From IMG/VR virus record IMGVR_UViG_3300025508_000038, positions 1 to 44,055 of that record: a stretch of DNA of 44,055 nucleotides; one strand, written 5' to 3'. The notes beneath the pieces are model-generated. The model ran no database searches and was not told the DNA's origin. It saw nothing but the letters and a program-made list of their open reading frames with translations. A program made the translations under genes and the position numbers. Shown here in pieces: positions 11,401-44,055 of this stretch (position 1 is its first letter; the number at the start of each line of letters is the position of its first letter). The stretch comes from a virus.

Positions 11401-11902
11401 AACAATATACCCAGAAAAAGATACAGCAAAAATGTTAGGTAAAGAACCAAACTTTGTACCAGTTTCAGTTAAGTATCCTGTTTCAGACTTAATGACTAAA
11501 GAACAATGGGATCAATATACTAATAAATTTTTTAGTCAATTTGATGGTGAAAAAGTAGGTGATTCACGAAAGTGGAATATATTTGAAAACCCATATGAAG
11601 AGTACAATAATCCATATGAAGCTATAAACCCTGAAGTAATGGAAGGTATTGGAAGTATTAGTAAACTTGCAGCTTATCTTTCAGGTGCTGATGATCCGTA
11701 TATTAGCAGCAATGTTCAAATGATGAAACCAGATGTTCTTGTAGAAAAAAAAGCAACAGGCGGCGAAGTTCCCTCTGAAAGACAACAAGCCAAATTATCA
11801 AAAAACAAATTAGATGAAATAGAGGCAGAGTTGCAAGATATACTAGGCTTGTCTAGCATGGGTGGACCAGAGTTAAATATAGGATTTGGTAGAAAGCTTT
11901 GA
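8456..11902 (+). CDS. Giant polyvalent-type virion protein (1148 aa)
   Basis: Hydrophobic Gly/Ala segments at about residues 38-100 precede a Pro-rich linker (about 105-140). Around residue 355 it has FRMQSDFQEEV, resembling the IQSD-W/H motif of large phage polyvalent proteins. Around 770-790 it has KFTDKLKEAIEKQGVNAFKRGG, resembling the ITD-MR----KG--LFKRGG segment that often ends the same module. The C-terminus (SSMGGPELNIGFGRKL) is typical of tailed-phage virion proteins. Polyvalent proteins are thought to be injected with the DNA and to carry several effector domains. Domain identity here is from motif resemblance only. It may be an ejection protein delivered into the host. Confidence 0.55.
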   Translation: MAARKEILSDLSTKISDGNISDAYRTFEQLPVVDQIAVSISPGVGDVLAAYEVGEFGRRAKTNIQDKDRLGAAGNIALSALSGISLIPLFRFLRGARGVTKSATKAVDAPKTLKPPVEEPLPLAPPKEPKVKLPKVEPFEPKGIKQINYQAGDFEFGSKARKWVNGIEQPNITTLGKKVQKLPVEQWVQRLENAGVPKGELRVLNILDESNSIHPKLIMSADAKKSLSRQNLDDYIARSQRDAIQVRNTPKDLLQNPETRPDFINLDTQGQLNYFVRGSGEYRNTPHHNQSLKYPDGKTGDNAYVFDGTGKYNAIQRLGDLRPRLAPEDFKTIQDDLLELKIDPFSQGKNVFRMQSDFQEEVSKRLRPTQIRTFESAKTNFDSVVKIPRVYQEANKSIKDFISVGPDALITGTQRTDLMNNLKPEFVDALRANDEQAMRKILGDDLYKTFTDTEFGTRVPGKYFESSDELDGLASVVEFIESRILGNFAVTPKNIIRKFPELEDFSKIDSNFDSVVKEVFKRTKNVEKIKEKIFKGKPTGFVKPEQQKELIKRLKNYNKEVDAVNDLTASGGRVDIDAIIESLNRDVRDLGIDSLSISPRELERITGKPFTDSLDLTPSDIFNLTDRAGNRVYKGIDFDDSNALSKAYFDDIADQGKTFFDAADGVKVLKKATGINQSQYGMKIDPYFDGGNSKYFKLPVRANILDSANKGDDFLFIGNRQAAAENFDTDIVKTYESAQNEIKKVLKELGVSEQGVVKTIKGTGTEFDGTYLKFTDKLKEAIEKQGVNAFKRGGAVEKSSRFNNFVEDVTTKLNKAANKALDENETAQQIKQFLTSPEARLYIETVLKKNEEPITQDFFTQLENDIYKKQIVKTLINDSSADVDYRAVDKNAFQNYDDYASIPISFYGSPIRSAFGNARLRIPKNTTYEDAEIEIFDKYDFGNEYGGDSYIKNLKKIYDGIQNRNPTDIFTGMEYFAERYGRTIYPEKDTAKMLGKEPNFVPVSVKYPVSDLMTKEQWDQYTNKFFSQFDGEKVGDSRKWNIFENPYEEYNNPYEAINPEVMEGIGSISKLAAYLSGADDPYISSNVQMMKPDVLVEKKATGGEVPSERQQAKLSKNKLDEIEAELQDILGLSSMGGPELNIGFGRKL

Positions 11903-22148: not shown

Positions 22149-22300
22149 TGTATAAAAGAACTAAAGGATACGCTATGGGCGGTTCTGTTAAAGGAACTAA
22201 ATACATGGCAAAAGGCGGTGCTATGAAGGGCACTAAGTATATGGCTAAAGGTGGAGCTATGAAAGGAACTAAATATATGTCAAAAGGCGGCAAAGTTTAA
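22148..22300 (+). CDS. 12-residue tandem-repeat protein (50 aa)
   Basis: After MYKRTKGYAMGGSV the protein is almost only KGTKYMAKGGAM repeated, with the third copy ending MSKGGKV. Strongly basic, Gly/Met rich. Gly-Met-Lys repeats (MAKGG) occur at tails of marine phage virion proteins, but a free-standing repeat gene is unusual. The start is coupled to the preceding stop as TAATG. Confidence 0.6.
   Translation: MYKRTKGYAMGGSVKGTKYMAKGGAMKGTKYMAKGGAMKGTKYMSKGGKV
22190..22291 (+). repeat. 36-base in-frame tandem repeat
   Basis: Three near-identical 36-base units (the last slightly short) encode KGTKYMAKGGAM. Copies differ mostly at third codon positions, so the repeat is kept at protein level. 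Confidence 0.85.
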
Positions 22301-26148: not shown

Positions 26149-26910
26149 ATGGCTAATATAACTGGTTGGGGCAGAGGAACCTGGGGTTCTAATACTTGGG
26201 GCGAACCAAATCCAGTTACTCTCACAGGTTTAGCAGCTACAAGTGCTGTTGGTTCTGTAACTATCGTAGCGAAAGCTAATGTAATTCCAACAGGACAATC
26301 AGCAACTGGATCAGTAGGTACGCCTACTTTTGATTGTGAAGCTAATCTAACTCTTACAGGTCAATCAGCAACATCTGCTGTAGGCACACCAACCGTTGTA
26401 GCAAAAGCAAATATTACGCCATCTACGCAAGTAGGAACTAGTGCTTTAGGCACTATATCTATAGTTGCAAAAGCAAATATAGTACCAACAGGACAATCTG
26501 CAACGTCTGCTATCGGAGGTGTTGGTGTTAATGGTGATGCTGTTGCTAACGCACCAGGAGCCGTAGGATCTGTCGGTAGTGTTGGCGTAGATGTAGATGG
26601 AGAAGCTAACGTTATTATATCAGGAGTTGCAGCTACTTCAGCAGTAGGATCTGTAACCATTCATCACAACGCACAGTTTAGTATTGATGGTGTTAATGCC
26701 ACAGGTGATGTAGGTTCTGTTACCATAACAGCTAAAGGAAACATAAGTGTTACTGGAGTTGAGGCTACTGGATCTGTAGGTAGTGTATTAGTTTGGTCGC
26801 TAATAGATGATACACAAACAAAAAATTATGCTAATATAAATACTGACCAAAGTTCATCCTTTGCTGAAATAAATGAAACACAAAGTCCAAATTGGGAAGA
26901 GGTAGCATAG
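26149..26910 (+). CDS. 22-residue repeat tail protein
   Basis: 253 residues. After GWGRGTWGSNTWGEP there are about nine copies of a 22-residue unit of type TGQSATSAVGSVTIVAKANV (residues about 23-217), then a short C-terminus with DDTQTKNYANINTDQSSSF. Gly/Val/Ala-rich repeats of this kind form beta shafts. The W-G-G-W-G-x-WG opening and the TQ-PNW end are typical of marine phage tail proteins. Likely a fibre shaft or tail-surface protein. Confidence 0.65.
   Translation: MANITGWGRGTWGSNTWGEPNPVTLTGLAATSAVGSVTIVAKANVIPTGQSATGSVGTPTFDCEANLTLTGQSATSAVGTPTVVAKANITPSTQVGTSALGTISIVAKANIVPTGQSATSAIGGVGVNGDAVANAPGAVGSVGSVGVDVDGEANVIISGVAATSAVGSVTIHHNAQFSIDGVNATGDVGSVTITAKGNISVTGVEATGSVGSVLVWSLIDDTQTKNYANINTDQSSSFAEINETQSPNWEEVA
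26215..26800 (+). repeat. About nine 66-base in-frame repeats
   Basis: Units encode a 22-residue pattern ending in AKAN or similar. Copies 5 and 6 vary in length (24 and 20 residues). Divergence at DNA level shows the array is old rather than a recent slippage. Confidence 0.75.
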
Positions 26911-30189: not shown

Positions 30190-30566
30190 TGAATGATGGA
30201 CAAGAAAGATTTAGCGGCGACATGAGTCGTAATGAAGTTGAAATAGATCTTAATAAATTTATGGCAATGGTTTCAGAGATTGGAGAACTAAAACAAAAAA
30301 TTATGGAAATGGAGAATGAGAGAGAACCAGATAATCCTTGGCAAAAGGTTATATGGTTTTCTCAAATGATTGACGCATGGCGTTTATTTCCTAGAGCATT
30401 TTTAAGTATTTACATGATATTGTTATACAAATGTACTATATGGTTTATGAACTTACCTGAACCATCATTTGAACAATCAGGTTTAATTTCTATAGTAGTA
30501 GGAGCAGGTGCTGCTTGGTTTGGTTTATACGCAGGAACAGCCAAAGATAAAATAAATAGTAAATAA
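30189..30566 (+). CDS. Holin-like membrane protein
   Basis: 125 residues. A cytoplasmic charged N-terminus with a coiled segment (about 18-45, SEIGELKQKIMEMENERE), WRLFPRAFLSIYMILLYKC with a first membrane helix (about 68-90), and a second helix SIVVGAGAAWFGLYAGTAKD (about 100-118). The LFPR and VGAGAAWFGLY signature is that of phage holins/holin-associated proteins. In the lysis region with spanin and lysozyme genes 6-7 kb downstream. Confidence 0.7.
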   Translation: MNDGQERFSGDMSRNEVEIDLNKFMAMVSEIGELKQKIMEMENEREPDNPWQKVIWFSQMIDAWRLFPRAFLSIYMILLYKCTIWFMNLPEPSFEQSGLISIVVGAGAAWFGLYAGTAKDKINSK

Positions 30567-30859
30567 TGGAAACCTTTGACCTTATAGAAAAGGTCGGACT
30601 ACCCATAGCTGGTGGTCTTATTATGGGTTACTTTATATTTCTTATTATGAAACAGCTTATGGGAAATCTTGTAAGTGATATAAAAGGAATACAAGGTATT
30701 ACTAAGATGCTTATTACTAGAGCATCAATAATGAACAACGATATTATCAGAATAGATACATCCGTATCTAGTGCTTTAAATTTAAAACCAGACTTAGATA
30801 GAATAGCTAGAGCAGAAAACTTTGTAGAAGATGGAAAGATAGACGCTAGAAGAGATTAA
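30566..30859 (+). CDS. Single-pass membrane protein A (tandem pair)
   Basis: 97 residues: METFDLIEKVGLPIAGGLIM then GYFIFLIMKQLM (helix about 10-30), then a helical extracytoplasmic or cytoplasmic tail (IKGIQGITKMLITRASIMNN). Same layout as the following gene, so a duplication. I recognise it as the EKxGxPIAGGLxxGYFIF type found in marine phages; function unknown, perhaps holin-associated. Confidence 0.62.
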   Translation: METFDLIEKVGLPIAGGLIMGYFIFLIMKQLMGNLVSDIKGIQGITKMLITRASIMNNDIIRIDTSVSSALNLKPDLDRIARAENFVEDGKIDARRD

Positions 30860-31134
30860 TGGACATAGTAACTTTAGTAGAAAAGTTTGGCTTTACAACT
30901 ATTATGGTCGTAGGTCTTGGTTACTTTGTTTATTATGTATGGCAAACAATTACCAATACTATTGATCCAGCCGTATCAGAAATGAAAACAACTATTATTC
31001 GCCTTACTGACCAACTTAGACTGCTTGACCAAGATATGATACGCTTACAAGAGAAAGTTAATACTGTATTAGAATTAAATGAAAAGAAAAATAACACAAA
31101 GACAACAAGTACAAGAAGAAATAGAAAAAACTAG
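30859..31134 (+). CDS. Single-pass membrane protein B (tandem pair)
   Basis: 91 residues: MDIVTLVEKFGFTTIMVVGL, helix to about residue 30, then a helical tail (TTIIRLTDQLRLLDQDMIRL) and a basic end (KTTSTRRNRKN). Shares M-x4-(L/V)EK-G start, GYF-F/VY and D-IRL elements with its neighbour. It ends 16 bases before the csgF-like start. Confidence 0.62.
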   Translation: MDIVTLVEKFGFTTIMVVGLGYFVYYVWQTITNTIDPAVSEMKTTIIRLTDQLRLLDQDMIRLQEKVNTVLELNEKKNNTKTTSTRRNRKN

Positions 31135-31150
31135 AATCATAAGAGGAATT

Positions 31151-31591
31151 ATGTTTATTGGTTTAATTATGTTTGTTGGTATATTTGTTACAAATGTCAA
31201 TGCAGACCAAATAGTACACAAGTTTAAATCACCAAGTTTTAATGGTGTTGGTACTAGCTCACATTATTTGACGATTGAAAACCAAGAGTTCTCAAGAAAA
31301 TTAACCATTAAAGAAGAAATAAAAGCTTTACAAGAAGAAATAGAAAGAGAAAAAGAAAACTCTACTCTTGCAAGGTTTATGCGTAACCTTGAATCAAGAG
31401 TTTATGCTGAATTATCCAGGCAGCTAGTTAATAACTTGTTTGGTGAAACGCCAAGCACAGAAGGTACGATAACCCTAGAGGGTAACACTATAGAGTATAC
31501 TAGCGATGGCGTAACACTAACCCTAAAAATAACGGAAGCAGATGGCACAATTACCTCGATTACAATTCCTATTGGTACTTTTTTGTTCTAG
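31151..31591 (+). CDS. csgF: CsgF-like curli assembly factor
   Basis: 146 residues from ATG 31151, preceded by AAGAGGAATT; the in-frame ATG at 31079 would spoil the signal peptide. Signal peptide MFIGLIMFVGIFVTNVNA (residues 1-18). The mature N-terminus DQIVHKFKSPSFNGVGTSSH matches the CsgF segment F-(R/K)-(N/S)-P-(N/S)-F-GG that inserts into the CsgG barrel to form the second constriction of the pore. A charged helix (about 52-97, KEEIKALQEEIEREKENS) and a beta C-terminus end SITIPIGTFLF. The order csgF then csgG overlaps by 50 bases. Homology is by eye, but clear. Confidence 0.85.
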   Translation: MFIGLIMFVGIFVTNVNADQIVHKFKSPSFNGVGTSSHYLTIENQEFSRKLTIKEEIKALQEEIEREKENSTLARFMRNLESRVYAELSRQLVNNLFGETPSTEGTITLEGNTIEYTSDGVTLTLKITEADGTITSITIPIGTFLF

Positions 31592-32441
31592 TTGTTCTAT
31601 ATTTGATCAGTACGAAGATACTTATGAACAGAGATTTTCTGCTCGTGATGTAGTAAATATACAAGACTTACAATCCATAGAACTTAAAAACGTACCCATA
31701 CCAAAATTAAGCCCAGTAGTCGCCGTATATCCCACAGCCTTTACAGATCAAACTGGTCAAAGAAAAAGCAACAGCGAGTTTGCTTTATTTAGCACAGCCA
31801 TAACACAACAACCAAACGCTCTGCTTATACGAGCTTTAAAACATGCAGGAGATGGCAAATTTTTTAGAGTAGTAGAAAGAGTTGGATTAGATAATCTTAC
31901 CAAAGAAAGACAATTAATAAGATCAGCCAGGGAACAAACAGCCTCAGAAGAAGAAAAGAAAAAAGCATTAAGGCCATTACTATTTGCAGGTATATTAATT
32001 GAAGGAGCTGTTATATCTTACGAAGCTAACTTAGAGTCTGGTGGTATAGGAGCTAGGTATCTAGGTATAGGCAATAGCGTACAGTATCGAGAAGATAATA
32101 TAACTGTAAGTCTACGCATGGTTTCTGTAGCTACAGGAGAGGTTTTGCTAGAAGTATTAAGTCAAAAAACCATATTTAGTTATGGTAAATCTGAAGATGT
32201 ATTTAGGTTTATTGAGGCAAATACCGAGCTAGTAGAGATAGAATTAGGTAACGCTAGAAACGAGTCATCAACTATAGCACTAATGAAAGCGATAGAAGGT
32301 GGTGTTTTAGAAATAATAAACCAAGGATATAAAAGAAATTTTTGGATTTTACAAAACGAAGACGAAGGAGTAGAATTGGATAATGAAGATATTGATGAGC
32401 CTAGTTGTGATGCTGAGTGCATCGACAATATACGGGGCTGA
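31542..32441 (+). CDS. csgG: CsgG-like outer-membrane secretion channel
   Basis: 299 residues, close to E. coli CsgG in length plus a C-terminal tail. The lipoprotein leader has candidate modified Cys18 (SSC). Core matches: VAVYPTAFTDQTGQ, ITQQPNALLIRALKHAG, RVVERVGLDNLTKERQLIR, GILIEGAVISYEANLESGG, GARYLGIGNSVQYREDNITV, RMVSVATGEVL and IEGGVLEIINQGYKRNFW. CsgG forms a 36-strand nonameric barrel that exports curlin. The constriction loop (69-84) differs: it is longer and keeps Phe (LFS) but not the Tyr and Asn I recall for E. coli. An acidic tail with two Cys (289, 293) is extra. Confidence 0.92.
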   Translation: MAQLPRLQFLLVLFCSSCSIFDQYEDTYEQRFSARDVVNIQDLQSIELKNVPIPKLSPVVAVYPTAFTDQTGQRKSNSEFALFSTAITQQPNALLIRALKHAGDGKFFRVVERVGLDNLTKERQLIRSAREQTASEEEKKKALRPLLFAGILIEGAVISYEANLESGGIGARYLGIGNSVQYREDNITVSLRMVSVATGEVLLEVLSQKTIFSYGKSEDVFRFIEANTELVEIELGNARNESSTIALMKAIEGGVLEIINQGYKRNFWILQNEDEGVELDNEDIDEPSCDAECIDNIRG

Positions 32442-33108
32442 TAACGAAATTTACGTAGACCAGTCAGGTACTGGTGCAAATATAGACCTAGAACAACTAG
32501 GTATATCTAATATCATAGGTGGTTTAAACAGCACTGCAGGCAGTTTGACCGCTTTTGATTTAGACGGCACTACTATGACTCTGGACATCAATATGATTGG
32601 TGCTACTAATAAATTCTTAGGTGACATAAACGCTGACAACTTTACAGGACTGTATAATTTTACTGGCGGTACAAATTCTTTTACTATTCAAGTAGATCCA
32701 ACTAATACTTACAGTTCAGATGGCTCTGACCAAAATGTAGCTGTTACAGGTAGTAGTAATACGTTCACCCTTAACCAAGGTACGACTGCAATAGCAGCAA
32801 ACTTAAATTTAGATTGGATTATTCAAGGATCAAATAACACTGTAACATCAAATATAAATATTGATGGTGCTACAAACTATATGGACATAGATGGGTCGGA
32901 CAATACAGTTACTTATACAGGTACAGGTGTTAATGCTTCAGCAGGTGGATATTTTTGGTTAGATCATACAGGCGGACAAAGAACATTTAATATTCAACAA
33001 CTGAGTACCCAAGATAATGACTGGCTTAAAATTATATCAATCGGTGGCAACGCTTCTTCTACTGTTTGTGTCATTCAAAACGACCAAGGTACAAGCACAA
33101 GCTGCTGA
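32383..33108 (+). CDS. Secreted curlin-like repeat protein
   Basis: 241 residues with a signal peptide (MKILMSLVVMLSASTIYG). The mature N-terminus NEIYVDQSGTGANIDLEQLG then ISN is the curlin motif (N-x-I-x-x-Q-x-G-x-x-N). Further on there are about five loose repeats built on G-(S/G)-x-N-(T/S)-(V/F)-T at 95, 123, 149 and 171, as in beta-solenoid amyloid subunits. It lies immediately after csgG, overlapping it by 59 bases. It is probably the cargo of the CsgG/CsgF channel. Longer and more degenerate than E. coli CsgA, with no separate CsgB-like nucleator seen. Confidence 0.75.
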   Translation: MKILMSLVVMLSASTIYGADNEIYVDQSGTGANIDLEQLGISNIIGGLNSTAGSLTAFDLDGTTMTLDINMIGATNKFLGDINADNFTGLYNFTGGTNSFTIQVDPTNTYSSDGSDQNVAVTGSSNTFTLNQGTTAIAANLNLDWIIQGSNNTVTSNINIDGATNYMDIDGSDNTVTYTGTGVNASAGGYFWLDHTGGQRTFNIQQLSTQDNDWLKIISIGGNASSTVCVIQNDQGTSTSC

Positions 33109-34132
33109 TATAGGGGATATTTCTGAGCTTAATGGTTCAGCACAAATAGTAAGAGACAAGCCTTACGAAGCAGATTTAAAGTTTGCTATTCAAAGTAATG
33201 ATGAAGCAATAACTAAAGATGGCCGTATGGCTATTACATTTCTTGATCAATCTACAGTTAAACTAACCGAACACTCACAGCTTCTTATAGATGAATACAT
33301 CTACGATCCTGATCCGTCAAAAGCAAAGATGGCCCTTACCTTTGGTCTTGGCACAGCTAGGTTTATTACAGGTAATCTTAACCGTATAGATAAACAAAAC
33401 ATAAAACTTAAAACACCCACGGCTAATATAGCCATACGTGGCACTGATTTTACTGCCACAGTTGATGAACTAGGACGTAGCCTTATTATATTGCTACCTG
33501 ACGCTCTAGGGCTTTCTAGTGGCGAAATAGAAGTAGTTACTGCCATGGGAACTGTTTTGCTTAATAAACCTTATGAGGCTACTACAGTAAGCGTATTTGA
33601 GTCTGCTCCTACTAAGCCTGTTATTTTAGATTTAACGCTTGATTTAATTGACAATATGTTAATTGTTACACCACCTAAAGAAGAAGCTGTAATTGAAGAA
33701 GAAACTACAAGCACACAAACAGCTAGTGTTTTAGATTTTAATGATTTAGATATAGATTATCTTGCAGAAGACTTTTTAGAAGATAATTTGGAGTTTACAG
33801 AATTAGATATAAATTACCTAGATGTAAATTATCTTGAGGACTTGTTAAATGTTTTAGATGCATTAGCTGTAAGTGAGGATGAAGACCAGTTAGCACAAGC
33901 GACTAGCACACAAATTAGTGGCACTTCTTTAGGTAAAGATGTTGAAACACAAATTACAGCTCTGATTACAGGTAACGTAGTAAGTCTTAGAAGACAAGTA
34001 AATGAAAGCGTTAGGGTAGATTTAAATGGCAGCAATGCTTATACAGTAATTTTGATACAAGACGGTATTTCTAATATAATTAAAGTTAATGGAGGGAGCG
34101 ACAGTGTTATTACTATTACTCAAAGTGATTAA
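33017..34132 (+). CDS. Secreted FecR-domain protein with curlin-like tail
   Basis: 371 residues. Signal peptide (about 5-28, LKLYQSVATLLLLFVSF then VQAQA). FecR domain (about 33-200): ISELNGSAQIVRDKPYEADL, MAITFLDQSTVKLTEHSQLL, KLKTPTANIAIRGTDF. Then an acidic stretch (about 235-275) with DLDIDYL, ELDINYLDVNYL repeats. The C-terminus (YTVILIQDGISNIIKVNGGS, then VITITQSD) again carries curlin-like Q-DG-SN-I. FecR-domain proteins are periplasmic. This one is adjacent to the CHASE2 cyclase, an arrangement I also associate with bacterial FecR/CHASE2 loci. It overlaps the curlin-like gene by 92 bases. Confidence 0.78.
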   Translation: MTGLKLYQSVATLLLLFVSFKTTKVQAQAADIGDISELNGSAQIVRDKPYEADLKFAIQSNDEAITKDGRMAITFLDQSTVKLTEHSQLLIDEYIYDPDPSKAKMALTFGLGTARFITGNLNRIDKQNIKLKTPTANIAIRGTDFTATVDELGRSLIILLPDALGLSSGEIEVVTAMGTVLLNKPYEATTVSVFESAPTKPVILDLTLDLIDNMLIVTPPKEEAVIEEETTSTQTASVLDFNDLDIDYLAEDFLEDNLEFTELDINYLDVNYLEDLLNVLDALAVSEDEDQLAQATSTQISGTSLGKDVETQITALITGNVVSLRRQVNESVRVDLNGSNAYTVILIQDGISNIIKVNGGSDSVITITQSD

Positions 34133-35887
34133 TTGAAGAGACTATTATTACCTGTAGTTATAATACTATCTTTACCATTATTATTTCAAAGCACGCCTAC
34201 AGAAATACTTAAGTTAAAAGTATTTGATACTTTTATACAAATACCCCAAGAGTCTGGCAATTTTGTCATACTCAATATAACTGAAGAAGATGTAGAACAA
34301 GAAGGTGGTTATCCATTACCAAGACAAAGACTTGCAGAAATTCAAGTAGATTTACTTGGTAAAGGTGCACTCGGTGTTGGTTGGGTAATATCTTTTCCAC
34401 AAGCAGATAGAATGGGTGGAGATGAAGATTTTGCTAGATCTTTAGGATACGCACCATCTGTTATAGCTATGTTTGAGGACGGAAAAGGTAATTTTCCTGA
34501 AACACCTGGCACTGTAGTGCTTGGTGACAATAATGGTGGTATAATAAGCACGGGAGTAAAGCAAAACCTACTTCTCTTATCCAATCACACCTTACAGGGT
34601 TTGGCTATTGCTCCCACTGATGTAGATCAACTTGTAAGAAGAATACCTCTTTTAGTAAAAACACCTAATGACGAATGGATACCTAGTTTTGGTACACAAA
34701 TATATAAAGCTTTATTTAATGTAAAAACTTACATTATAAAAACTAATGATAATGGTATATCAGAAATATCAATAAAAGGAATACCACCAGTTAAAACAGA
34801 TAGCTTTGGCCGTAAGTGGATAAGCTGGGTCGATACACCACAGACAGATTTACAAGAAATGGAAGTAAATGGTAAATTTGTTTTTGTTGGCGTAACTGCT
34901 AACGGGGTAATGCCGCAAATTTCCACGCCTGTCGGTTTGTTAGAACCACATAAGATACAAGCAGCACTTGCAGAGTCTATACTAATAGAAGACAGTCCTT
35001 ACATACCTGATTGGTCTTTAGCTGCTGAACTTATGATGCTTATTGCATTTGTTAGTTTAGTTTGGTTTGCACTTCATTATTTAGGAATAACTTGGGGCAT
35101 TACTGTTGCAACTATGTTAATGGTTACTACTGGTAGTTTAGGGTATTACCTTATAAGCAAAGGTTTATTAGTAGATGTATCTTGGACACTTATATCAGAG
35201 TTTATTTCAGGATCTGTAGCTTTCTATTTAAGGTTTAGACAACAATATAAATTACGTCAACAAATTAAAAAACAATTTGAACATTATCTTGACCCACGCC
35301 AAGTTAAAAAATTACAGGATGATCCTAGTTCTTTAGTGTTAGGTGGTGAGCGTAGGTATTGCACGTTCCTCTTTACTGACGTACGTGGCTTTACTTCTAT
35401 GTCTGAAAAACTAGAGCCAGAAGAAGTAACAAAAATTATGAATAAGGCTCTCACAATACAAGCTGATACCGTTAAAAGATATGATGGTATGGTAGATAAA
35501 TACATAGGTGACGCTATGATGGCCATATTTAATGCTCCTATTGATTTACCAGGACATGAAACTTCAGCAGTATTATGTGCCAAAGAAATACAAGACAAAA
35601 TTAAAATGGCTAATTTAGATGTAGAAATAGGCATAGGAGTCAATAGCGGTTATGCAGTAATTGGTAATATGGGTAGTGAAACTAGGTTTGATTACACAGC
35701 TATAGGAGATGCAGTAAATCTTGCAGCTAGACTTGAAAGCTCAACCAAGCAAGTTGGTGAAGATATTGTTATAGGTTATGATACTATTAAATCTAAAGGT
35801 TTTAGTAAACAAATTACTTTAAAAGAATTAGATAGCATTAAGGTTAAAGGAAAAGACAAATCTATAAATATTTATACAATTATATGA
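34133..35887 (+). CDS. Membrane adenylate cyclase with CHASE2 sensor domain
   Basis: 584 residues, TTG start directly after the previous stop. N-terminal membrane anchor (about 4-19), extracytoplasmic CHASE2 domain (about 22-290), three membrane helices (about 298-316, 319-341, 346-364), then a class III nucleotide cyclase domain (about 400-584). Catalytic residues are all present: FTDVRGF with Asp416, KYIGDAMMA with Lys456 and Asp460, YTAIGDAVNLAAR with Thr522, Asn529 and Arg533. The Lys/Thr pair indicates ATP rather than GTP, so it should make cAMP. A complete host-like signalling enzyme inside a phage is highly unusual. Confidence 0.9.
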   Translation: MKRLLLPVVIILSLPLLFQSTPTEILKLKVFDTFIQIPQESGNFVILNITEEDVEQEGGYPLPRQRLAEIQVDLLGKGALGVGWVISFPQADRMGGDEDFARSLGYAPSVIAMFEDGKGNFPETPGTVVLGDNNGGIISTGVKQNLLLLSNHTLQGLAIAPTDVDQLVRRIPLLVKTPNDEWIPSFGTQIYKALFNVKTYIIKTNDNGISEISIKGIPPVKTDSFGRKWISWVDTPQTDLQEMEVNGKFVFVGVTANGVMPQISTPVGLLEPHKIQAALAESILIEDSPYIPDWSLAAELMMLIAFVSLVWFALHYLGITWGITVATMLMVTTGSLGYYLISKGLLVDVSWTLISEFISGSVAFYLRFRQQYKLRQQIKKQFEHYLDPRQVKKLQDDPSSLVLGGERRYCTFLFTDVRGFTSMSEKLEPEEVTKIMNKALTIQADTVKRYDGMVDKYIGDAMMAIFNAPIDLPGHETSAVLCAKEIQDKIKMANLDVEIGIGVNSGYAVIGNMGSETRFDYTAIGDAVNLAARLESSTKQVGEDIVIGYDTIKSKGFSKQITLKELDSIKVKGKDKSINIYTII

Positions 35888-36066
35888 CAACATCAAAAGA
35901 AGCTATATCTAAAATAGAAACACATGAAAAAGAATGTTCTATAAGATATTCGAATATAGAAAAAAGATTAGAAGATGGTGCAAAACGATTTGATAAACTA
36001 GAAAATATGATATGGGCAGTCTATCCATTTATTTTAGTTTCATTGGTTTTGTCCAGATTTGTTTAG
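35884..36066 (+). CDS. Coiled coil plus membrane helix protein (60 aa)
   Basis: MTTSKEAISKIETHEKECSI, a helical N-terminus of heptads, then MIWAVYPFILVSLVLSRFV, a C-terminal membrane helix. The arrangement matches small phage hemolysin XhlA-like or holin-associated proteins. Overlaps the cyclase stop by 4 bases and the next GTG by one. A lysis role is likely but unproven. Confidence 0.6.
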   Translation: MTTSKEAISKIETHEKECSIRYSNIEKRLEDGAKRFDKLENMIWAVYPFILVSLVLSRFV

Positions 36067-36299
36067 TGAAACAAAAACTAAAACTTTTTTATAATTGGTT
36101 TGTAAGTCTATTTCAAACACGTTATAAAATAACAGTTTCTTTTAATAGAGAGTATGGAGATACTGATGATAAAACTTACATTTCAAAAAAAATACTTATT
36201 CAAAAAGAAAAACATCTTAAATTTAGAACTCTTGATAAGAAATTAATTGAATACAGAAGTTCTACAGGACTAAACTATATTATTGAGGAAGACGAATAA
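36066..36299 (+). CDS. Conserved marine-phage protein (NREYGDTDDKTYISKKIL type)
   Basis: 77 residues from GTG 36066, which overlaps the preceding TAG. MKQKLKLFYNWFVSLFQTRY opens with an amphipathic or membrane-skimming helix, then ITVSFNREYGDTDDKTYISK and LKFRTLDKKLIEYRSSTGLN, ending IEEDE. I recall this protein from marine T4-like phages and pelagiphages; function unknown. It sits in the lysis cluster just before the spanin-like genes. Confidence 0.68.
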   Translation: MKQKLKLFYNWFVSLFQTRYKITVSFNREYGDTDDKTYISKKILIQKEKHLKFRTLDKKLIEYRSSTGLNYIIEEDE

Positions 36300-36694
36300 T
36301 GCAACAAGTTTTAATAGGTATTATTATAGTATTAGGACTTGGTAGCTATTGGTTATATAACGAAAACGTAACCTTAAAAGCTAACAACGTTGCCTTAGAG
36401 GGTGCTATAGCTACACAAGAGGAAGCGATAGAAAGTTTACAGAATGATTTTGAATTACAAACTACACAAATGAATGAGCTTACTATTAAAAGTCAAGCAG
36501 CACAAAGAGAACTAAACAGATATACACAGTTTATACAAAACTATGAATTATCTGCAAAAATACTAGCAGATCCAATAGAAATGCAAAGGAAAATAAATAA
36601 TGGAACAAAACATATTATGGAGAACATCGAAGAAATCAGCGTTGTCGTTGATGATCTTGATGATGGCTTGCAGTTGCAGCCTGATTCCGACTAA
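36299..36694 (+). CDS. i-spanin-like membrane coiled-coil protein
   Basis: 131 residues. N-terminal membrane helix (about 3-20, VLIGIIIVLGLGSYWLY) followed by a long periplasmic coiled coil (about 24-110, EGAIATQEEAIESLQNDF and following), the topology of Rz-type inner spanins. Its gene overlaps the next lipoprotein gene by 95 bases in another frame, exactly like Rz/Rz1 pairs. Together they fuse inner and outer membranes at lysis. Confidence 0.72.
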   Translation: MQQVLIGIIIVLGLGSYWLYNENVTLKANNVALEGAIATQEEAIESLQNDFELQTTQMNELTIKSQAAQRELNRYTQFIQNYELSAKILADPIEMQRKINNGTKHIMENIEEISVVVDDLDDGLQLQPDSD

Positions 36695-36983
36695 ACAAAT
36701 AGAAGTAACAGCAAAACCACTAGACAGGAAGATTGTTCAACCTGTAATGCCTAGAGAAATTGATTTGCAAGAACCTATGTGGATTGTTGTAACACCTGAA
36801 AACTTAGACGAACAACTAGCAATTATAGAAGAACAAGAAGGAGAGCTAGTATTTTTAGCTATGACAATACCTGATTACGAGGTTATGGCTTACAATATGC
36901 AAGAACTAAAAAGGTATATAAGTGAACTTAAAGACGTTGTTGTGTATTATAGGACAGTTACTACAACTAAAAAGGAAGATTAA
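36600..36983 (+). CDS. o-spanin-like lipoprotein
   Basis: 127 residues. The leader SLMILMMACSCSLIPTK gives a lipobox near Cys24-Cys26, then PVMPREIDLQEPMWIVVTPE and ELKRYISELKDVVVYYRTV. The start is embedded in the i-spanin frame (ATG 36600; ATG 36651 is an alternative). The P-EI-L-EP-W-VVTPENLDE pattern recurs in phage proteins beside i-spanins. It is longer than Rz1, so a bifunctional role is possible. Confidence 0.65.
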   Translation: MEQNILWRTSKKSALSLMILMMACSCSLIPTKQIEVTAKPLDRKIVQPVMPREIDLQEPMWIVVTPENLDEQLAIIEEQEGELVFLAMTIPDYEVMAYNMQELKRYISELKDVVVYYRTVTTTKKED

Positions 36984-36984
36984 T

Positions 36985-37428
36985 ATGAAAATATCACAAG
37001 AAGGCATAAATTTAATTAAAAAATTTGAAGGTTGTAAACTTGAAGCATACAAATGTGCAGCAAATGTATGGACTATAGGCTATGGCTCTACTAAAGGTGT
37101 AAAAGAAGGAGATAGCATTACACAAGAAGAAGCAGAAAATCTTTTGATGAAAGACTTAGAAGTTTTTGAAGATGCTGTAAATAAAGCGGTGCAAAGATCA
37201 ATAGTTCAATGTCAATTTGATGCTTTGGTATCTTGGACTTTTAATTTAGGTGCTGGTAATCTTAATTCATCTACCATGTTAAAAAAATTAAATAACCAAG
37301 AATATGACGAAGTAGCTTCACAAATGAAGCGTTGGAATAAAGCTAATGGCAAAGTTCTTGAAGGTTTAGTAAGGCGTAGAGAAGCAGAAGCTTTGCTTTA
37401 TGAAGGTAAAGAGTGGCACGAGGTTTAA
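36985..37428 (+). CDS. Endolysin, GH24 lysozyme family
   Basis: 147 residues from ATG 36985; the longer in-frame version from 36922 lacks a ribosome site. Glu15 (KFEGC), Cys24 (YKCAAN) and Thr30 (WTIGYGS) give the E-x8-C-x5-T triad seen in phage P22/P1-type lysozymes with Cys replacing Asp. It then has TQEEAENLLMKDL, FDALVSWTFNLGAGNLNSST and RREAEALLYEG. It cleaves the MurNAc-GlcNAc bond of peptidoglycan. No signal peptide is seen, so it needs the holin. Confidence 0.92.
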   Translation: MKISQEGINLIKKFEGCKLEAYKCAANVWTIGYGSTKGVKEGDSITQEEAENLLMKDLEVFEDAVNKAVQRSIVQCQFDALVSWTFNLGAGNLNSSTMLKKLNNQEYDEVASQMKRWNKANGKVLEGLVRRREAEALLYEGKEWHEV

Positions 37429-37429
37429 T

Positions 37430-39298
37430 ATGCCGTTGCAGAAGCTTACATTTAGACCAGGTATAAATAGAGAAGGAACTGCTTACGATAACGAAGGGGG
37501 TTGGTTTGATTGTAATCTTGTAAGGTTTAGAAAAGGTAGGCCAGAAAAATTTGGTGGCTGGGCGAAAACAACCTCTAATACTTACCTTGGTACTGCTAGA
37601 GCATTACATCCGTGGATTTCTTTAGCTGGTACTAAATTTTTAGGTTTAGGCACACATCTAAAATACTATATAGAAGTTGGTGGTTCTTTTAACGACATTA
37701 CACCTATTAGATCTACCACATCAGCAGGAGATGTCACATTTTCTGCATCAAATGGTGACGCTACAATAACTGTTGCAGATACCGCACACGGTGCAGTTCA
37801 GAATGATTTTGTTACATTTTCTGGAGCAGCAAGTCTTGGCGGTAATGTTACGGCTGCTGTTTTAAATCAAGAATATCAAATAGCAACTATAGTAAACGCT
37901 AATAGTTACACAATAGAAGCCAAAGATACATCTGGCACTACGGTTACTGCAAATGCATCTGACAGTGGAAATGGTGGATCATCTGTTGTTGGTGTTTATC
38001 AAGTAAATGTGGGTTTGGATGTTTATGTTCCTGGCACAGGTTGGGGTTTAAATGGATGGGGTGAAGGAACTTTTGGTAGCACATCCACATTAAGTGATAC
38101 TAATCAGCTTAGAATATGGACGCATGATAATTTTGGTGAAGATTTGATGATAAATCAAAGAAATGCAGGTATTTTTAAATGGACAGAAAATAACGGCTTA
38201 AGCACTAGAGCTGTAGAATTATCTGGTATATCAGGTGCAAATTTAGTTCCTACCAAAGCTTTACAAGTTATAACATCTGAAAAAGATAGGCATTTAATAG
38301 TTTTAGGTGCAGATCCTATATCTGGTTCTACGAGAACTGGAACTGTAGATCCTATGCTTATAGCATTTAGTGACCAAGAAAATGCTTTGGATTTTGAGCC
38401 CTTGTCAACGAACACTGCAGGTTCATTAAGGTTGTCAAGCGGCTCATCTATTATTGGTGGTGTAAAAGCACGACAAGAAATATTAGTTTGGACTGATACA
38501 GCTTTATATAGTATGCAGTTTATTGGACCACCATTTACATTTGGAATAAATTTAATAAACGAAGGAACAGGATTAATTGGTCCTAAAGCTGTGGTCACAA
38601 CTCCAAGTGGTGTTTACTGGATGAGTTATAACAATTTTTATTTATACAATGGTAGTGTTCAAACACTGCCATGCTCAGTACATAATTATGTGTTTACAGA
38701 CATAAACCTCACTCAATCATTTAAAATAAATGCCTTTACTATAAAAGATAAAAGTGAAGTAGGTTGGTTCTATTGTTCTAGTAGTGCAACCGAAGTAGAT
38801 AGATACGTTATATACAATTATGTTGAGGGTATTTGGTTCTACGGACAGTTATCTAGAACTGCTTGGCTTGACTCTGGTATTGAAAACTATCCAAGAGCTG
38901 TAAGCGGTGGATACTTATATCAACAAGAATTGGGGTTTAACGATGATGGTTCTCCTATGACAAATGTTTTTATTGAAAGTTCTGATCTAGATATAGGAGA
39001 TGGTGAACAGTTTTCATTTATAAAAAGAATCATACCTGATTATAAATTTATACAAGATGATAATAGTGGTAATGTAAATGTAGTTCTTAAAACTAGAAAC
39101 TTTCCAGGTGATAGTCTTACTACTAATTCAACAAGTGCAATAAGCTCTTCTACACAACAAGCATTTGTAAGAAGCCGATCAAGACAGATAGCACTTAGGT
39201 TTGAGTCTGATGATGATGCTTCTAATAATGGCAATTTATCTATAGGATGGAGGCTAGGATCTACTCGTATAGATATAAAACCAGACGGTAGAAGATGA
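37430..39298 (+). CDS. gp10-like DNA-stabilisation / tail-hub protein
   Basis: 622 residues from ATG 37430 (an in-frame start at 37400 lies inside the lysozyme gene). MPLQKLTFRPGINREGTAYD, then GGWFDCNLVRFRKGRPEKFG, followed by a beta-propeller-like series of blades (IWTHDNFGEDLMINQRNAGI, VWTDTALYSMQFIGPPF, VTTPSGVYWMSYNNFYLYNG). This is the family seen in marine podoviruses and equated with P22 gp10 (packaged-DNA stabilisation, tail hub). A strong structural call; the precise role is inferred. Confidence 0.75.
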   Translation: MPLQKLTFRPGINREGTAYDNEGGWFDCNLVRFRKGRPEKFGGWAKTTSNTYLGTARALHPWISLAGTKFLGLGTHLKYYIEVGGSFNDITPIRSTTSAGDVTFSASNGDATITVADTAHGAVQNDFVTFSGAASLGGNVTAAVLNQEYQIATIVNANSYTIEAKDTSGTTVTANASDSGNGGSSVVGVYQVNVGLDVYVPGTGWGLNGWGEGTFGSTSTLSDTNQLRIWTHDNFGEDLMINQRNAGIFKWTENNGLSTRAVELSGISGANLVPTKALQVITSEKDRHLIVLGADPISGSTRTGTVDPMLIAFSDQENALDFEPLSTNTAGSLRLSSGSSIIGGVKARQEILVWTDTALYSMQFIGPPFTFGINLINEGTGLIGPKAVVTTPSGVYWMSYNNFYLYNGSVQTLPCSVHNYVFTDINLTQSFKINAFTIKDKSEVGWFYCSSSATEVDRYVIYNYVEGIWFYGQLSRTAWLDSGIENYPRAVSGGYLYQQELGFNDDGSPMTNVFIESSDLDIGDGEQFSFIKRIIPDYKFIQDDNSGNVNVVLKTRNFPGDSLTTNSTSAISSSTQQAFVRSRSRQIALRFESDDDASNNGNLSIGWRLGSTRIDIKPDGRR

Positions 39299-39621
39299 GC
39301 AAACTATTACAAACACAGCTACCGATAGCTAGTGATACAGTTACATCTGATGTTTTTAACAGATTAGTTAGAATACTAGAAATAAATTTAGGTGCTGTAG
39401 ATCTTGATAATGTCCGACAAATAAATGACGCAGAAAAAAATACACTTAAATTCAATGATGGCAGCATTATATGGAATACTACTGTAGGTGTTCTACAAGT
39501 ATATACAGGTAACAAATGGGTTGATATTGGTGATAGAACATTGCCTCAAGGATTTGAGATGACATCAGCCTTAGGTGAAGTTTCTGTAAAAACTAATGGT
39601 AATATAACCATAACTTTATGA
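39295..39621 (+). CDS. Small virion protein (108 aa)
   Basis: MSKLLQTQLPIASDTVTSDV, then FNRLVRILEINLGAVDLDNV. The part SIIWNTTVGVLQVYTGNKWV is the short GTIIWNT--GVLQ-YTG-KW motif common in tail-fibre-linked proteins. Overlaps both neighbours by 4 bases. Likely a tail-attached or fibre-anchor protein. Confidence 0.65.
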   Translation: MSKLLQTQLPIASDTVTSDVFNRLVRILEINLGAVDLDNVRQINDAEKNTLKFNDGSIIWNTTVGVLQVYTGNKWVDIGDRTLPQGFEMTSALGEVSVKTNGNITITL

Positions 39622-40325
39622 GTGATACAGCAGAAGATTTAAATTACCAAGTTAAAAACCTTTTACTTGCTTATCCTTCTGATTGGTACATACAAAAAGA
39701 CACTTTTGATGCTGTAAAAGACTCTATACAGCCAATAGTAAACTTTTATGAAGACAGTGGTGTTGAGCCTAGACAAGACACAAAACTCGATAATATAATC
39801 AAAGAACCATTAAAAGATGTCTATACAGTGCCATTTTTTTCAGAGAAGTTTTGCGACATACTTCTAGATGAAATGAAGAACTTAGAGGCACATTTTGGCT
39901 TTAACCCTAACCCAGAAGAAGATAATTTACGGCAAATACCAGAAATAACTTTTCAAGATAATTGTCCTCAAATCTTTCAATCTCTAATGCAAACGATATA
40001 TACTATAGGAAATCCTATATTTTTGAATATTTGGAACCGACACGTAGATAGTGGTGGAATACAAATAGCCAACTATAATTTAAGGGATAAAAAACAAGGT
40101 GCTTGGCATCACGATGCAAGTGCTGATATTAGTATGGTAGTTCCTTTGAACACTGGAAAGTACAAAGGTGGCGGAACTGAGTTTTTAAAACGTGGTACAG
40201 TCGAGCCCTTACCTACAGGCCACGCTCTTATTTTTCCGAGTTTTACTCATATGCACAGGGGACTTGCAGTAGAATCAGGAGATAGATACTTATTAGTATT
40301 TTGGTTAAAATGTTTACAGGAATAA
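39618..40325 (+). CDS. 2-oxoglutarate/Fe(II) oxygenase (prolyl-hydroxylase-like)
   Basis: 235 residues. The double-stranded beta-helix core is C-terminal. AWHHDASADISMVVPLN gives His164/Asp166, GGGTEFLKRGTV follows, then ALIFPSFTHMHRGLAVESGD with His213 and RYLLVFW with Arg223 for 2OG. The metal triad is intact. It would hydroxylate a protein or nucleic acid residue, substrate unknown. Such enzymes recur in marine phages, usually near structural genes. Confidence 0.85.
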   Translation: MSDTAEDLNYQVKNLLLAYPSDWYIQKDTFDAVKDSIQPIVNFYEDSGVEPRQDTKLDNIIKEPLKDVYTVPFFSEKFCDILLDEMKNLEAHFGFNPNPEEDNLRQIPEITFQDNCPQIFQSLMQTIYTIGNPIFLNIWNRHVDSGGIQIANYNLRDKKQGAWHHDASADISMVVPLNTGKYKGGGTEFLKRGTVEPLPTGHALIFPSFTHMHRGLAVESGDRYLLVFWLKCLQE

Positions 40326-41564: not shown

Positions 41565-44055
41565 TGGGTTTTTTATCAAAAGCATTTAAAAATCAAATTA
41601 TGTCACCTATTGGTAGACCAATTCCTGCTATGGGTGTTAGGCCTATGTTAAGAGAGCCTGGAATAGATATAGCAGGTGAAAGAAGCATATTTGGGCAGCA
41701 AAGCCCATTTGGTCCACCTTTAACTCCACCTGTAAATATTAGTGGTCCAGTTTTACCACGTAGAGACCCACGTATAATCCCACCAAGACCACGATCAATA
41801 GGCGGCATAGGTGGTATTAATCAACCACAACCAATTATGCCTATAAATGTTCCTGGCGGTGGCGGTATTGATTATGGTGGTGGCGAAGGACCTCCGTTAT
41901 TACCTCTACAACCACCAAGTATAGGAGGTCCTATAAATATTGGCACTCCGATTACTGGTCAACCTTTAGTTCCTGGTAGTGGAAATGTACCACCAATACA
42001 AGATGATGGTTTAGTAACTGATCCATACGGCAATAGAATAGATCCTAACAATTTACCAGATAATATGGTTTTAGAAGATGGCGGCCTTAAAGGAGGCATG
42101 AGAGCTGTATTTGCACCAGACTACGCATTACAACCAAATGATCCAGGCTATATGAGTAACGATCAAGGATTCAATCGTGGTATTGAGCAAATAATTAGAC
42201 CACCATCAATCGGTGGTCCAGGTGGAGGTATAACTTCTATAGGACAAATAGGTCAAGATCCTAGAATACCTAGAATGATTAATGAAAATCCAATACCTTT
42301 TGATCCTAATACACCAGTAGATATAAGTAATATTGGTTCAGGCGTACTTGATCCTGGAAAACCTATACCTAGTATGGGTCCACCTAAACAACTTAAACCA
42401 ATAGAACTAAACGACTTTGGCTTTGGTCCAGGTATTAGACCTTCAGAGATTATTACTCCAGATGGACAGTTTATTGGCTCTGGAGGCGTAACACCACCAA
42501 CTACAACACCAGGAAGTGGTATAAAACAACCTATGCCTGTAAATGATGGTCCTGGAAGCATGGGCAGACCTGTAGCTCCAATATTAGGTGGTAGTGATTT
42601 TTTACCAAAACCTCCAGGTGATTTAACAGGTATAGGACAACCACTTAGAAATGAAATAGGTCCTATAGGCGGAAGTAATGCGGATCTTTTTGATCCTAAT
42701 GTTTCTGCTGGTTCTGGATTTTTTGATGATCCTCTAGTACCTAAAATGATTAATGAGAATCCAGTATCTTTTGATCCTATGGGTCCACCTAAACAACCTA
42801 AACCAGTTGAACTACCAGACTATGGCTTTGGCCCAGGCATTAGGCCAACAGAAATTCGTGGGCCAGATGGAAGAATTATTGGCCCAGCAGGTGTAACACC
42901 TCCACCACCTATTTCAGATCCAGTAGTTGATCCTGTTACACCAACAGTTGACCCAGTAGTTACACCAACAGCTCAAACAGACCCTACACAAACACAAATG
43001 GCTATGGGTGCAATGGATCCAGTATTGTTACAACAATCTGCATCTGAAGTACAAACAGACCCATTATTAAGATCTTTATATTTTGGAACAGCAGATCAAC
43101 CAGGTTTTTACAATCAATTACAGCAAGCAGGTGCTAATCTAATTGGCAGTGATGTACCATTACAACAAACTGCAGGATTGTCCCCACTAGAATTATTAGC
43201 TAGACAACAGGCTATTTCTGGTATTGGTGGTTTTGAACCATTTTTACAACAAAATCAAAATTTAGTTAATCAGGCTATAGATCAATCTAGGAGAGCAGAA
43301 ACACTTAGAGATCCTTACTATGGTAGAGCTGAAAGACAGATGCAAATTGGTGCAGGAGAAGAATTACAAGGTATTGGTCAAGCACGTGGAATTACTACAG
43401 GAGCTACAGATAGATTTGGTGGTTCTCTAGGAAGACTTGGAAGACAAGCTATAGGTAGTACACAAAATTATGGTGGAAGTCTTGGTGAATCAGAGGATTT
43501 ACTAAGAGGAACATTAGGTGCTTATGATCCAGGCATGACTCAACAGTTCTACAATCCTTATGAGGATAGAGTAGTACAACAAACCATTGATGATGTATTA
43601 AAAGCTGGAGACAAGCAGGATATAGCATCAAGAGCTCGTGAGATTAGCTCTGGTGCCTTTGGTGGTAGTAGAGCCAGGCTTGGAGCAGAAGAACGTAGAG
43701 AGTCTTTAGGTAAAGGTTTAGCACAAGCTTTAGGTAACATAAGATCACAAGGATTCCAAAGTGCTCAAGCAACTGGACTAGGTGAGTTTGCAAGACAAAG
43801 AGCTGCTGAAAGAGCTGCAAGTAGTGGCTTGGCTGGATTATCTGGTTCAAGACTTGGAGCACAACAACAACTTGGAAGTACCCTTAGAGGTCTAACAGGT
43901 GATCAGTTTGGTGCACAACAGCAACTTGCTAGTAGTCTGATGGGATACGGTGCGGCTGGTTCAGGTGCAAGACAAAATCTTGCTACTGGGTTGCTTGGTA
44001 TAGGACAACAAAGAGGTGCTGGTGCTTCAGCATTAGGATCACAATTAGCTGGATA
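41564..44055 (+). CDS. Long Pro/Gly/Gln-rich virion protein, 3' end beyond window
   Basis: Open from ATG 41564 to the window end (830 codons, no stop). Residues about 1-480 are Pro/Gly/Ile-rich and low-complexity (SIGGIGGINQPQPI type), including a duplicated segment. From about 490 it becomes helical, with DPLLRSLYFGTADQPGF, LSPLELLARQQAISGIG, then GSSRARLGAEERR-like Gly/Ala/Arg/Gln helices (SRLGAQQQLGSTLRGLTGDQ). This C-terminal type is seen in large marine phage virion proteins, possibly tail-needle, ejection or tape-measure-like. Partial. Confidence 0.68.
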   Translation, partial: MGFLSKAFKNQIMSPIGRPIPAMGVRPMLREPGIDIAGERSIFGQQSPFGPPLTPPVNISGPVLPRRDPRIIPPRPRSIGGIGGINQPQPIMPINVPGGGGIDYGGGEGPPLLPLQPPSIGGPINIGTPITGQPLVPGSGNVPPIQDDGLVTDPYGNRIDPNNLPDNMVLEDGGLKGGMRAVFAPDYALQPNDPGYMSNDQGFNRGIEQIIRPPSIGGPGGGITSIGQIGQDPRIPRMINENPIPFDPNTPVDISNIGSGVLDPGKPIPSMGPPKQLKPIELNDFGFGPGIRPSEIITPDGQFIGSGGVTPPTTTPGSGIKQPMPVNDGPGSMGRPVAPILGGSDFLPKPPGDLTGIGQPLRNEIGPIGGSNADLFDPNVSAGSGFFDDPLVPKMINENPVSFDPMGPPKQPKPVELPDYGFGPGIRPTEIRGPDGRIIGPAGVTPPPPISDPVVDPVTPTVDPVVTPTAQTDPTQTQMAMGAMDPVLLQQSASEVQTDPLLRSLYFGTADQPGFYNQLQQAGANLIGSDVPLQQTAGLSPLELLARQQAISGIGGFEPFLQQNQNLVNQAIDQSRRAETLRDPYYGRAERQMQIGAGEELQGIGQARGITTGATDRFGGSLGRLGRQAIGSTQNYGGSLGESEDLLRGTLGAYDPGMTQQFYNPYEDRVVQQTIDDVLKAGDKQDIASRAREISSGAFGGSRARLGAEERRESLGKGLAQALGNIRSQGFQSAQATGLGEFARQRAAERAASSGLAGLSGSRLGAQQQLGSTLRGLTGDQFGAQQQLASSLMGYGAAGSGARQNLATGLLGIGQQRGAGASALGSQLAG
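42265..42905 (+). repeat. Internal protein duplication in the 41564 gene
   Basis: The segment MINENPIPFDP...FGFGPGIRPSEI...GGVTPP (about 42265-42500) is repeated as MINENPVSFDP...YGFGPGIRPTEI...AGVTPP (about 42735-42905), the second copy shorter in its first part. Both contain GPPKQ-KP-EL. Divergence shows it is not recent. Confidence 0.75.

Follow-up and report, generated by a model that had tools for sequence, protein, structure and literature searches.

Curli-type genes in phages are not new. CsgF and CsgG, together with neighbouring genes, were described in pelagimyophages in 2020 (PMC7029224). In 2022, HTVC023P-type podoviruses were described with CsgF, CsgG, CsgA/B, FecR and an adenylate cyclase, in many cases with a second CsgA/B; nine genomes of that study's set carry the module, viral curli proteins were found at all 65 GOV2.0 stations, and the proposed roles were superinfection defence, sibling capture and import (PMC9599517). 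Also in 2022, it was proposed for phage Melnitz that the pore acts in lysis (PMC9004378).

An earlier note on the DNA analysed here had read three consecutive genes as csgF, csgG and a curlin-like cargo, joined to signalling genes, and had suggested that this set would amount to a new type of system. The gene assignments hold up, as described below. The novelty does not, because the same set is present in HTVC023P-type podoviruses (PMC9599517), and the cultured phages HTVC008M and Melnitz carry it. The module is thus already known, in the same phage type (2022) and partly in pelagimyophages (2020).

Source virus

The window, by which we mean the whole stretch of 44,055 bases that was analysed, is the entire virus record, and the gene at one of its ends is open. 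Because the related HTVC023P-type genomes are longer (57-61 kb) and a gene runs off the end, the window genome is probably incomplete. TerL is 57.6-59.5% identical, and the portal protein about 47% identical, to the proteins of HTVC023P, HTVC027P and 023Pt_psg01, while the capsid protein is 65-66% identical to those of HTVC023P and HTVC027P. Judged by these three proteins, the virus is a relative of the HTVC023P-type pelagiphages, which are podoviruses. Its host is probably a SAR11 bacterium, by analogy with HTVC023P and HTVC027P, which were isolated on HTCC1062. A megablast search with 20 kb of the window against phage records gave no match.

Several other features of the window were observed along the way. 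Directly upstream of TerL, positions 8456-11902 encode a 1148-aa protein without significant matches in Pfam or PHROG. Repeats occur at 22172-22290 (three at 36-base spacing, encoding Lys/Gly-rich units), at 26232-26768 (five imperfect 75-base copies, mostly spaced by 66 bases, in the tail-region gene 26149-26910) and at 42373-42904 (two 127-base copies, 405 apart and 79% alike, within gene 41564, which is open at the window end). The region 22313-22996 matches a PHROG 'ferredoxin' family (4e-29), and 39618-40325 is a 2OG-Fe(II) oxygenase-like gene (phrog_61, 3.7e-32).

Genes of the module and its surroundings

The genes relevant to this analysis are as follows.

30566..30859, + strand: small protein of 97 aa, N-terminal TM helix followed by a coiled coil (phrog_18771, 5.4e-24)
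30859..31134, + strand: second small TM/coiled-coil protein of the same family, 91 aa (phrog_18771, 3.6e-26)
31151..31591, + strand: csgF, with a signal peptide and the segment FKSPSFNG (Pfam CsgF 5.9e-16; phrog_35372 6.3e-43)
31542..32441, + strand: csgG, outer-membrane pore (Pfam CsgG 1.9e-45; E. coli CsgG structures 2.5e-48)
32383..33108, + strand: curlin-type secreted cargo, with a signal peptide and degenerate curlin repeats
33017..34132, + strand: exported FecR-domain protein (Pfam FecR 9.3e-10) that ends in a conserved curlin-like segment (VILIQDGISN ... ITITQSD)
34133..35887, + strand: CHASE2 sensor and class III adenylate cyclase (Pfam CHASE2 5.9e-27, Guanylate_cyc 4.6e-19)
35884..36066, + strand: 60-aa protein with a C-terminal TM helix, a holin-like layout by inspection only; no significant family match
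36299..36694, + strand: Rz-like inner-membrane spanin (phrog_739, 7.2e-12)
36600..36983, + strand: Rz1-like spanin (phrog_812, 9.5e-12)
36985..37428, + strand: phage lysozyme (endolysin), start chosen from the sequence (Pfam Phage_lysozyme 5.4e-51)

The five genes from csgF to the cyclase are co-directional, and neighbours either overlap by tens of bases or abut. The earlier note was right on the phage setting and on the connection with the signalling-type genes that follow. The csgF, csgG and cargo genes all lie where it had placed them. The csgF open reading frame opens at 31079; because a Shine-Dalgarno-like AAGAGGA precedes the ATG at 31151, the longer form is probably unused and 31151 is the probable start. 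A comparison of CsgF with solved structures by sequence gave no meaningful match. For CsgG, the alignment to the E. coli structures covers residues 47-275.

In E. coli, the curli operons are csgBAC and csgDEFG, and CsgE is the periplasmic gate of the CsgG pore. CsgE (PF10627) had no match in the window, HTVC008M, Melnitz or two relatives, while the E. coli control was positive. Since CsgE has been reported to increase secretion, yet not to be essential (PMC7029224), we treat it as accessory, and its absence does not exclude membership in the type VIII (curli) secretion systems.

The cargo begins with a signal peptide, followed by ADNEIYVDQSGTGANIDLEQLGISNIIGG. On its own, its resemblance to curlins is weak: against Pfam Curlin_rpt it scores 13.6 bits (E 0.068) with hmmscan and 17.2 bits when a single genome is searched, in both cases below the cut-off of 20.7 bits. 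The curlin assignment therefore relies on its relatives. The Melnitz orthologue reaches 26.0 bits, and the curlin ladder positions N21, Q27, G29, Q38, G40, N43, G73 and N76 are among the invariant columns when 27 relatives, with identities as low as 24%, are aligned. The window cargo and the myophage cargo proteins have the opening of the curlin part, N-[DEQ]-[IV]-Y-[VI]-x-Q-x-G, in common. An AlphaFold2 model based on 17 sequences predicts a beta-ladder whose many strands follow each other at intervals of about 11 residues (mean pLDDT 74.5); a search of the PDB with this model gave nothing significant (best E 0.46), with matches to the CsgA fibril and FapC at noise level. Taken through its orthologues, the cargo is best read as an exported curlin-type protein, in line with the earlier note.

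Distribution, selection and origin

In IMG/VR, we found 385 relatives of the window's CsgG, and the cargo was present in all of the 80 best contigs selected by CsgG. Among 74 contigs carrying csgF, csgG, the cargo gene and fecR, the complete order of five genes is present in 69; the other 5 lack the cyclase. We also selected contigs by the structural gene at 37400-39298, which lies downstream and is unrelated to the module, taking the 20 closest relatives (at least 81% identity, each with at least 7 kb of upstream sequence). The module was at the same site in 20/20, with all five genes in 19 and without the cyclase in one. This figure describes the window's lineage rather than the whole phage type, and within that lineage the module appears to be fixed.

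Median dN/dS values relative to the window, which are approximate given that synonymous sites are near saturation, were 0.098 for csgF, 0.090 for csgG, 0.093 for the cargo, 0.077 for fecR, 0.167 for the cyclase, 0.078 for the structural gene and 0.226 for the lysozyme. By this measure, purifying selection acts on the cargo as strongly as on the pore (about 0.09), which argues against a role of the pore alone.

CsgG is a bacterial family, and a misassembled or contaminating bacterial fragment was therefore considered. We rejected this explanation, to which we give practically no credence, because many independent contigs span both junctions (at about 31.1 and 35.9 kb). In a CsgG tree, moreover, 29 viral or phage-contig rows are split from 9 bacterial rows with support of 100/99; the tree is midpoint-rooted with long branches and carries no direction of transfer. 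Finally, using profiles derived from the phages, FecR, cyclase and TM neighbours were not detected at the readable bacterial csgG loci, several of which are short. At most of these loci, csgF adjoins csgG.

A scan of bacterial genomes gave 13 matches, 7 of which are phage-like contigs in MAG bins, judged by their phage-type gene order. The phage-type module sits on contigs of genomes whose titles name Maricaulis, Neomarinimicrobiota, Flavobacteriaceae, Rhodobacteraceae and Pelagibacter; these contigs appear to be phage DNA that entered the bins. Conversely, the unannotated record OR851715.1 (1499 bp, labelled as a Salmonella phage), which gave a CsgG match of 43.7%, may be a piece of a bacterial csgG under a phage label.

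Small genes upstream of csgF

In the published description of the HTVC023P-type module, one or two 'histidine kinases' come first, with sequences called short and diverged (PMC9599517). At this position, the window has the genes for the 97- and 91-aa proteins, many relatives have a single gene of 116 aa, and HTVC008M and Melnitz have two small genes each, so that a small gene is a constant neighbour of csgF in podophages and myophages. According to hydropathy and inspection, each of the encoded proteins combines a single TM helix with a coiled coil, and phrog_18771 is a family of unknown function. The protein at 30566..30859 had no Pfam match at E<=5, and the window pair has weak sub-threshold Pfam matches at most; in one relative, the small TM/coiled-coil protein has a weak, sub-threshold match to YvrJ. 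The domain HATPase_c was absent at E<=1 from the window, HTVC008M, Melnitz and five IMG/VR relatives, which may be fragments, while 14/14 control genomes were positive.

Judged by position and number, the published 'histidine kinases' are probably these small proteins, one or two per phage, with a single TM helix and a coiled coil. Because the original description itself calls the sequences short and diverged, we regard the missing kinase domain as an annotation problem in the definition of the module, and not as a sign of non-membership. The label 'histidine kinase' should be dropped or rechecked.

The FecR-domain protein and the cyclase

The ferric-citrate regulator FecR has a cytoplasmic N-terminal part and a TM helix before its FecR domain, and its partner is the sigma factor FecI. 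The phage protein has a signal-peptide-like N-terminus and a FecR domain match at residues 66-151 (by inspection), and lacks a cytoplasmic part and TM helix ahead of the domain. For this reason it looks exported, unlike the iron regulator. A general Pfam/PHROG scan of the neighbouring genes found no FecI sigma factor.

The last 45 residues of the FecR-domain protein are strongly conserved, contain one strict curlin motif (VILIQDGISN) and end in ITITQSD; the corresponding ends are ITINQTN in HTVC008M and VTIIQIN in Melnitz. The strict motif arises in 0.4% of shuffles, a figure that must be read with the fact that the motif was picked after inspection of the tail, and the C-terminal signature also occurs in 5/437 background ORFs. 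The tail has no match to Pfam Curlin_rpt, and its hhalign comparison with curlin N-termini is weak (E 0.0017, probability 16%). A curlin repeat in the FecR tail is thus a weak lead. Structure prediction for the protein gave a pLDDT of 33.7, too low for a fold search.

In the cyclase, FTDVRGF, DKYIGDAMM and TAIGDAVNLAARLE align with the solved CyaB (other solved cyclases were also aligned), and on this alignment the catalytic metal, substrate and transition-state residues are intact. To consider the receiving side, we surveyed 197 genomes, which may be incomplete, from the family to which a MAG titled Pelagibacter belongs. CsgG was present in 2/197, both times on contigs with phage-type gene order. 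A class III cyclase occurs in 3/197: two are on those CsgG contigs, and the third is below the family cut-off. The cNMP_binding domain occurs in 11/197, of which only 3 have it in ORFs no larger than about the size of CRP, and in none of the phages examined. As far as these genomes go, the presumed host family has no class III cyclase of its own and mostly lacks cNMP-binding domains. Because the phages lack these domains too, CRP-type cAMP signalling in the presumed hosts is unlikely.

Possible roles

SAR11 bacteria rank with the most abundant cells of the ocean, and they are not known to produce curli. An outer-membrane pore and a surface fibre given by a virus could therefore alter SAR11 aggregation, superinfection and carbon flow. 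The importance of viral curli for SAR11 was already stated in papers from 2020-2022.

Our best explanation, to which we assign a probability of roughly 0.6, is a pelagiphage curli secretion module whose cargo would leave through the CsgG-CsgF pore and coat the infected cell with amyloid. The cargo would cross the inner membrane by Sec, exit through a CsgG pore that is capped by CsgF and has no CsgE gate, and assemble on the cell surface. The FecR-domain protein would lie on the periplasmic or outer side, probably as an anchor, nucleator or sensor partner and not as an iron regulator, and the cyclase may report the state of secretion or of the envelope via its periplasmic CHASE2 domain. The most likely use would be a change of the infected cell's surface before lysis, causing superinfection exclusion or clumping of neighbouring cells. 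The retention of the cargo in 80/80 and 20/20 contigs, and its constraint, point to this coat, as both concern the cargo and not the pore alone, and the second cargo of HTVC008M, with curlin repeats and PA14, fits adhesion. Against it, the cargo repeats are degenerate, the predicted structure found no significant PDB match, CsgE is absent, and no clumping was seen in laboratory infections with Melnitz (PMC9004378).

Among the roles that the earlier note had suggested, a pore acting alone in lysis or leakage fits less well, since the cargo is as conserved and constrained as the pore. A fuller version, argued by the Melnitz authors (PMC9004378), is that the CsgG-CsgF pore is a device for lysis or depolarisation, producing an outer-membrane leak timed with spanin and endolysin, with the fibre cargo secondary. 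The absence of the CsgE gate suits this idea, as do the small TM/coiled-coil proteins that flank csgF, one of which, in a relative, has the weak YvrJ match, and the podophage module's location just before the endolysin: the lysozyme lies at most 3 kb downstream of the cyclase in 37/41 contigs with enough sequence, and Rz/Rz1 directly follow in the window. However, the module of the myophages HTVC008M and Melnitz is not next to annotated lysis genes, so adjacency to these genes may be a local layout. The phage, furthermore, already has spanins and a lysozyme, and the cargo is never missing. We consider this explanation unlikely. It is still less probable that, during infection, nutrients or cofactors (siderophores, cobalamin) are taken up through the pore, as proposed in PMC7029224 and PMC9599517; a CsgG pore is wide when ungated, but uptake leaves the conserved cargo and the FecR-domain protein unexplained, and the latter has its export signal directly before the FecR domain, unlike an iron regulator. 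A part of the virion, or an aid to its release, might be suspected from the module's place in the late operon among structural genes. Yet the signal-peptide-like N-termini of CsgF, CsgG, the cargo and the FecR-domain protein point to the envelope, the myophage module lies outside the main structural block, and we regard a virion role as very improbable.

An extension of the amyloid-coat reading is that the FecR-domain protein, with a curlin-like segment at its C-terminus, serves as a nucleator or outer-surface anchor of the fibre and is coupled by way of CHASE2 to a phage-encoded cyclic-nucleotide signal. In a host with no class III cyclase of its own, and mostly without known receptors, this would amount to a self-contained, virus-only circuit that senses secretion. 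We offer this idea as speculation, and it is rather doubtful.

Comparison with known systems

The E. coli curli system shares homologous CsgG and CsgF and a secreted curlin-type subunit with the window. The window differs from it in lacking CsgE, in the extra FecR-domain, CHASE2-cyclase and TM proteins, and in the degenerate repeats of its cargo.

The deposited record of Melnitz, a methylophage (PMC9004378; MZ577097), has the same genes in the same order, but the phage has a gammaproteobacterial host and an extra curlin gene. According to the publication, there is no csgA or csgB; in the record, two proteins with curlin repeats are annotated, at 8833-9552 and 10611-11627, and both score above the Pfam cut-off. 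HTVC008M (PMC7029224; KC465899) has the order CsgF-CsgG-curlin-FecR-cyclase, with CsgG 43-47% identical. Unlike the window virus, it is a myophage with the module away from lysis genes, and it has an extra cargo gene with a PA14 domain and curlin repeats. This gene, at 10462-11787, is annotated as 'hypothetical protein' and joins PA14 (2.7e-6) to curlin repeats (5.2e-8), possibly making an adhesive fibre subunit.

The closest system is the HTVC023P-type module (PMC9599517), which has the same order of small gene(s), CsgF, CsgG, curlin, FecR and cyclase, and no CsgE. The window differs in lacking the optional second curlin gene and in having small genes before csgF without a kinase domain. Given CsgG, CsgF and an exported curlin-type subunit, the last assigned through its orthologues, we classify the window's locus as a pelagiphage type VIII (curli) secretion module. 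To the published descriptions, the present analysis adds the lineage-wide presence of the module, the constraint on its cargo, the re-reading of the 'histidine kinase' genes and the unlikelihood of CRP-type signalling, and these points make the question of its role more testable.
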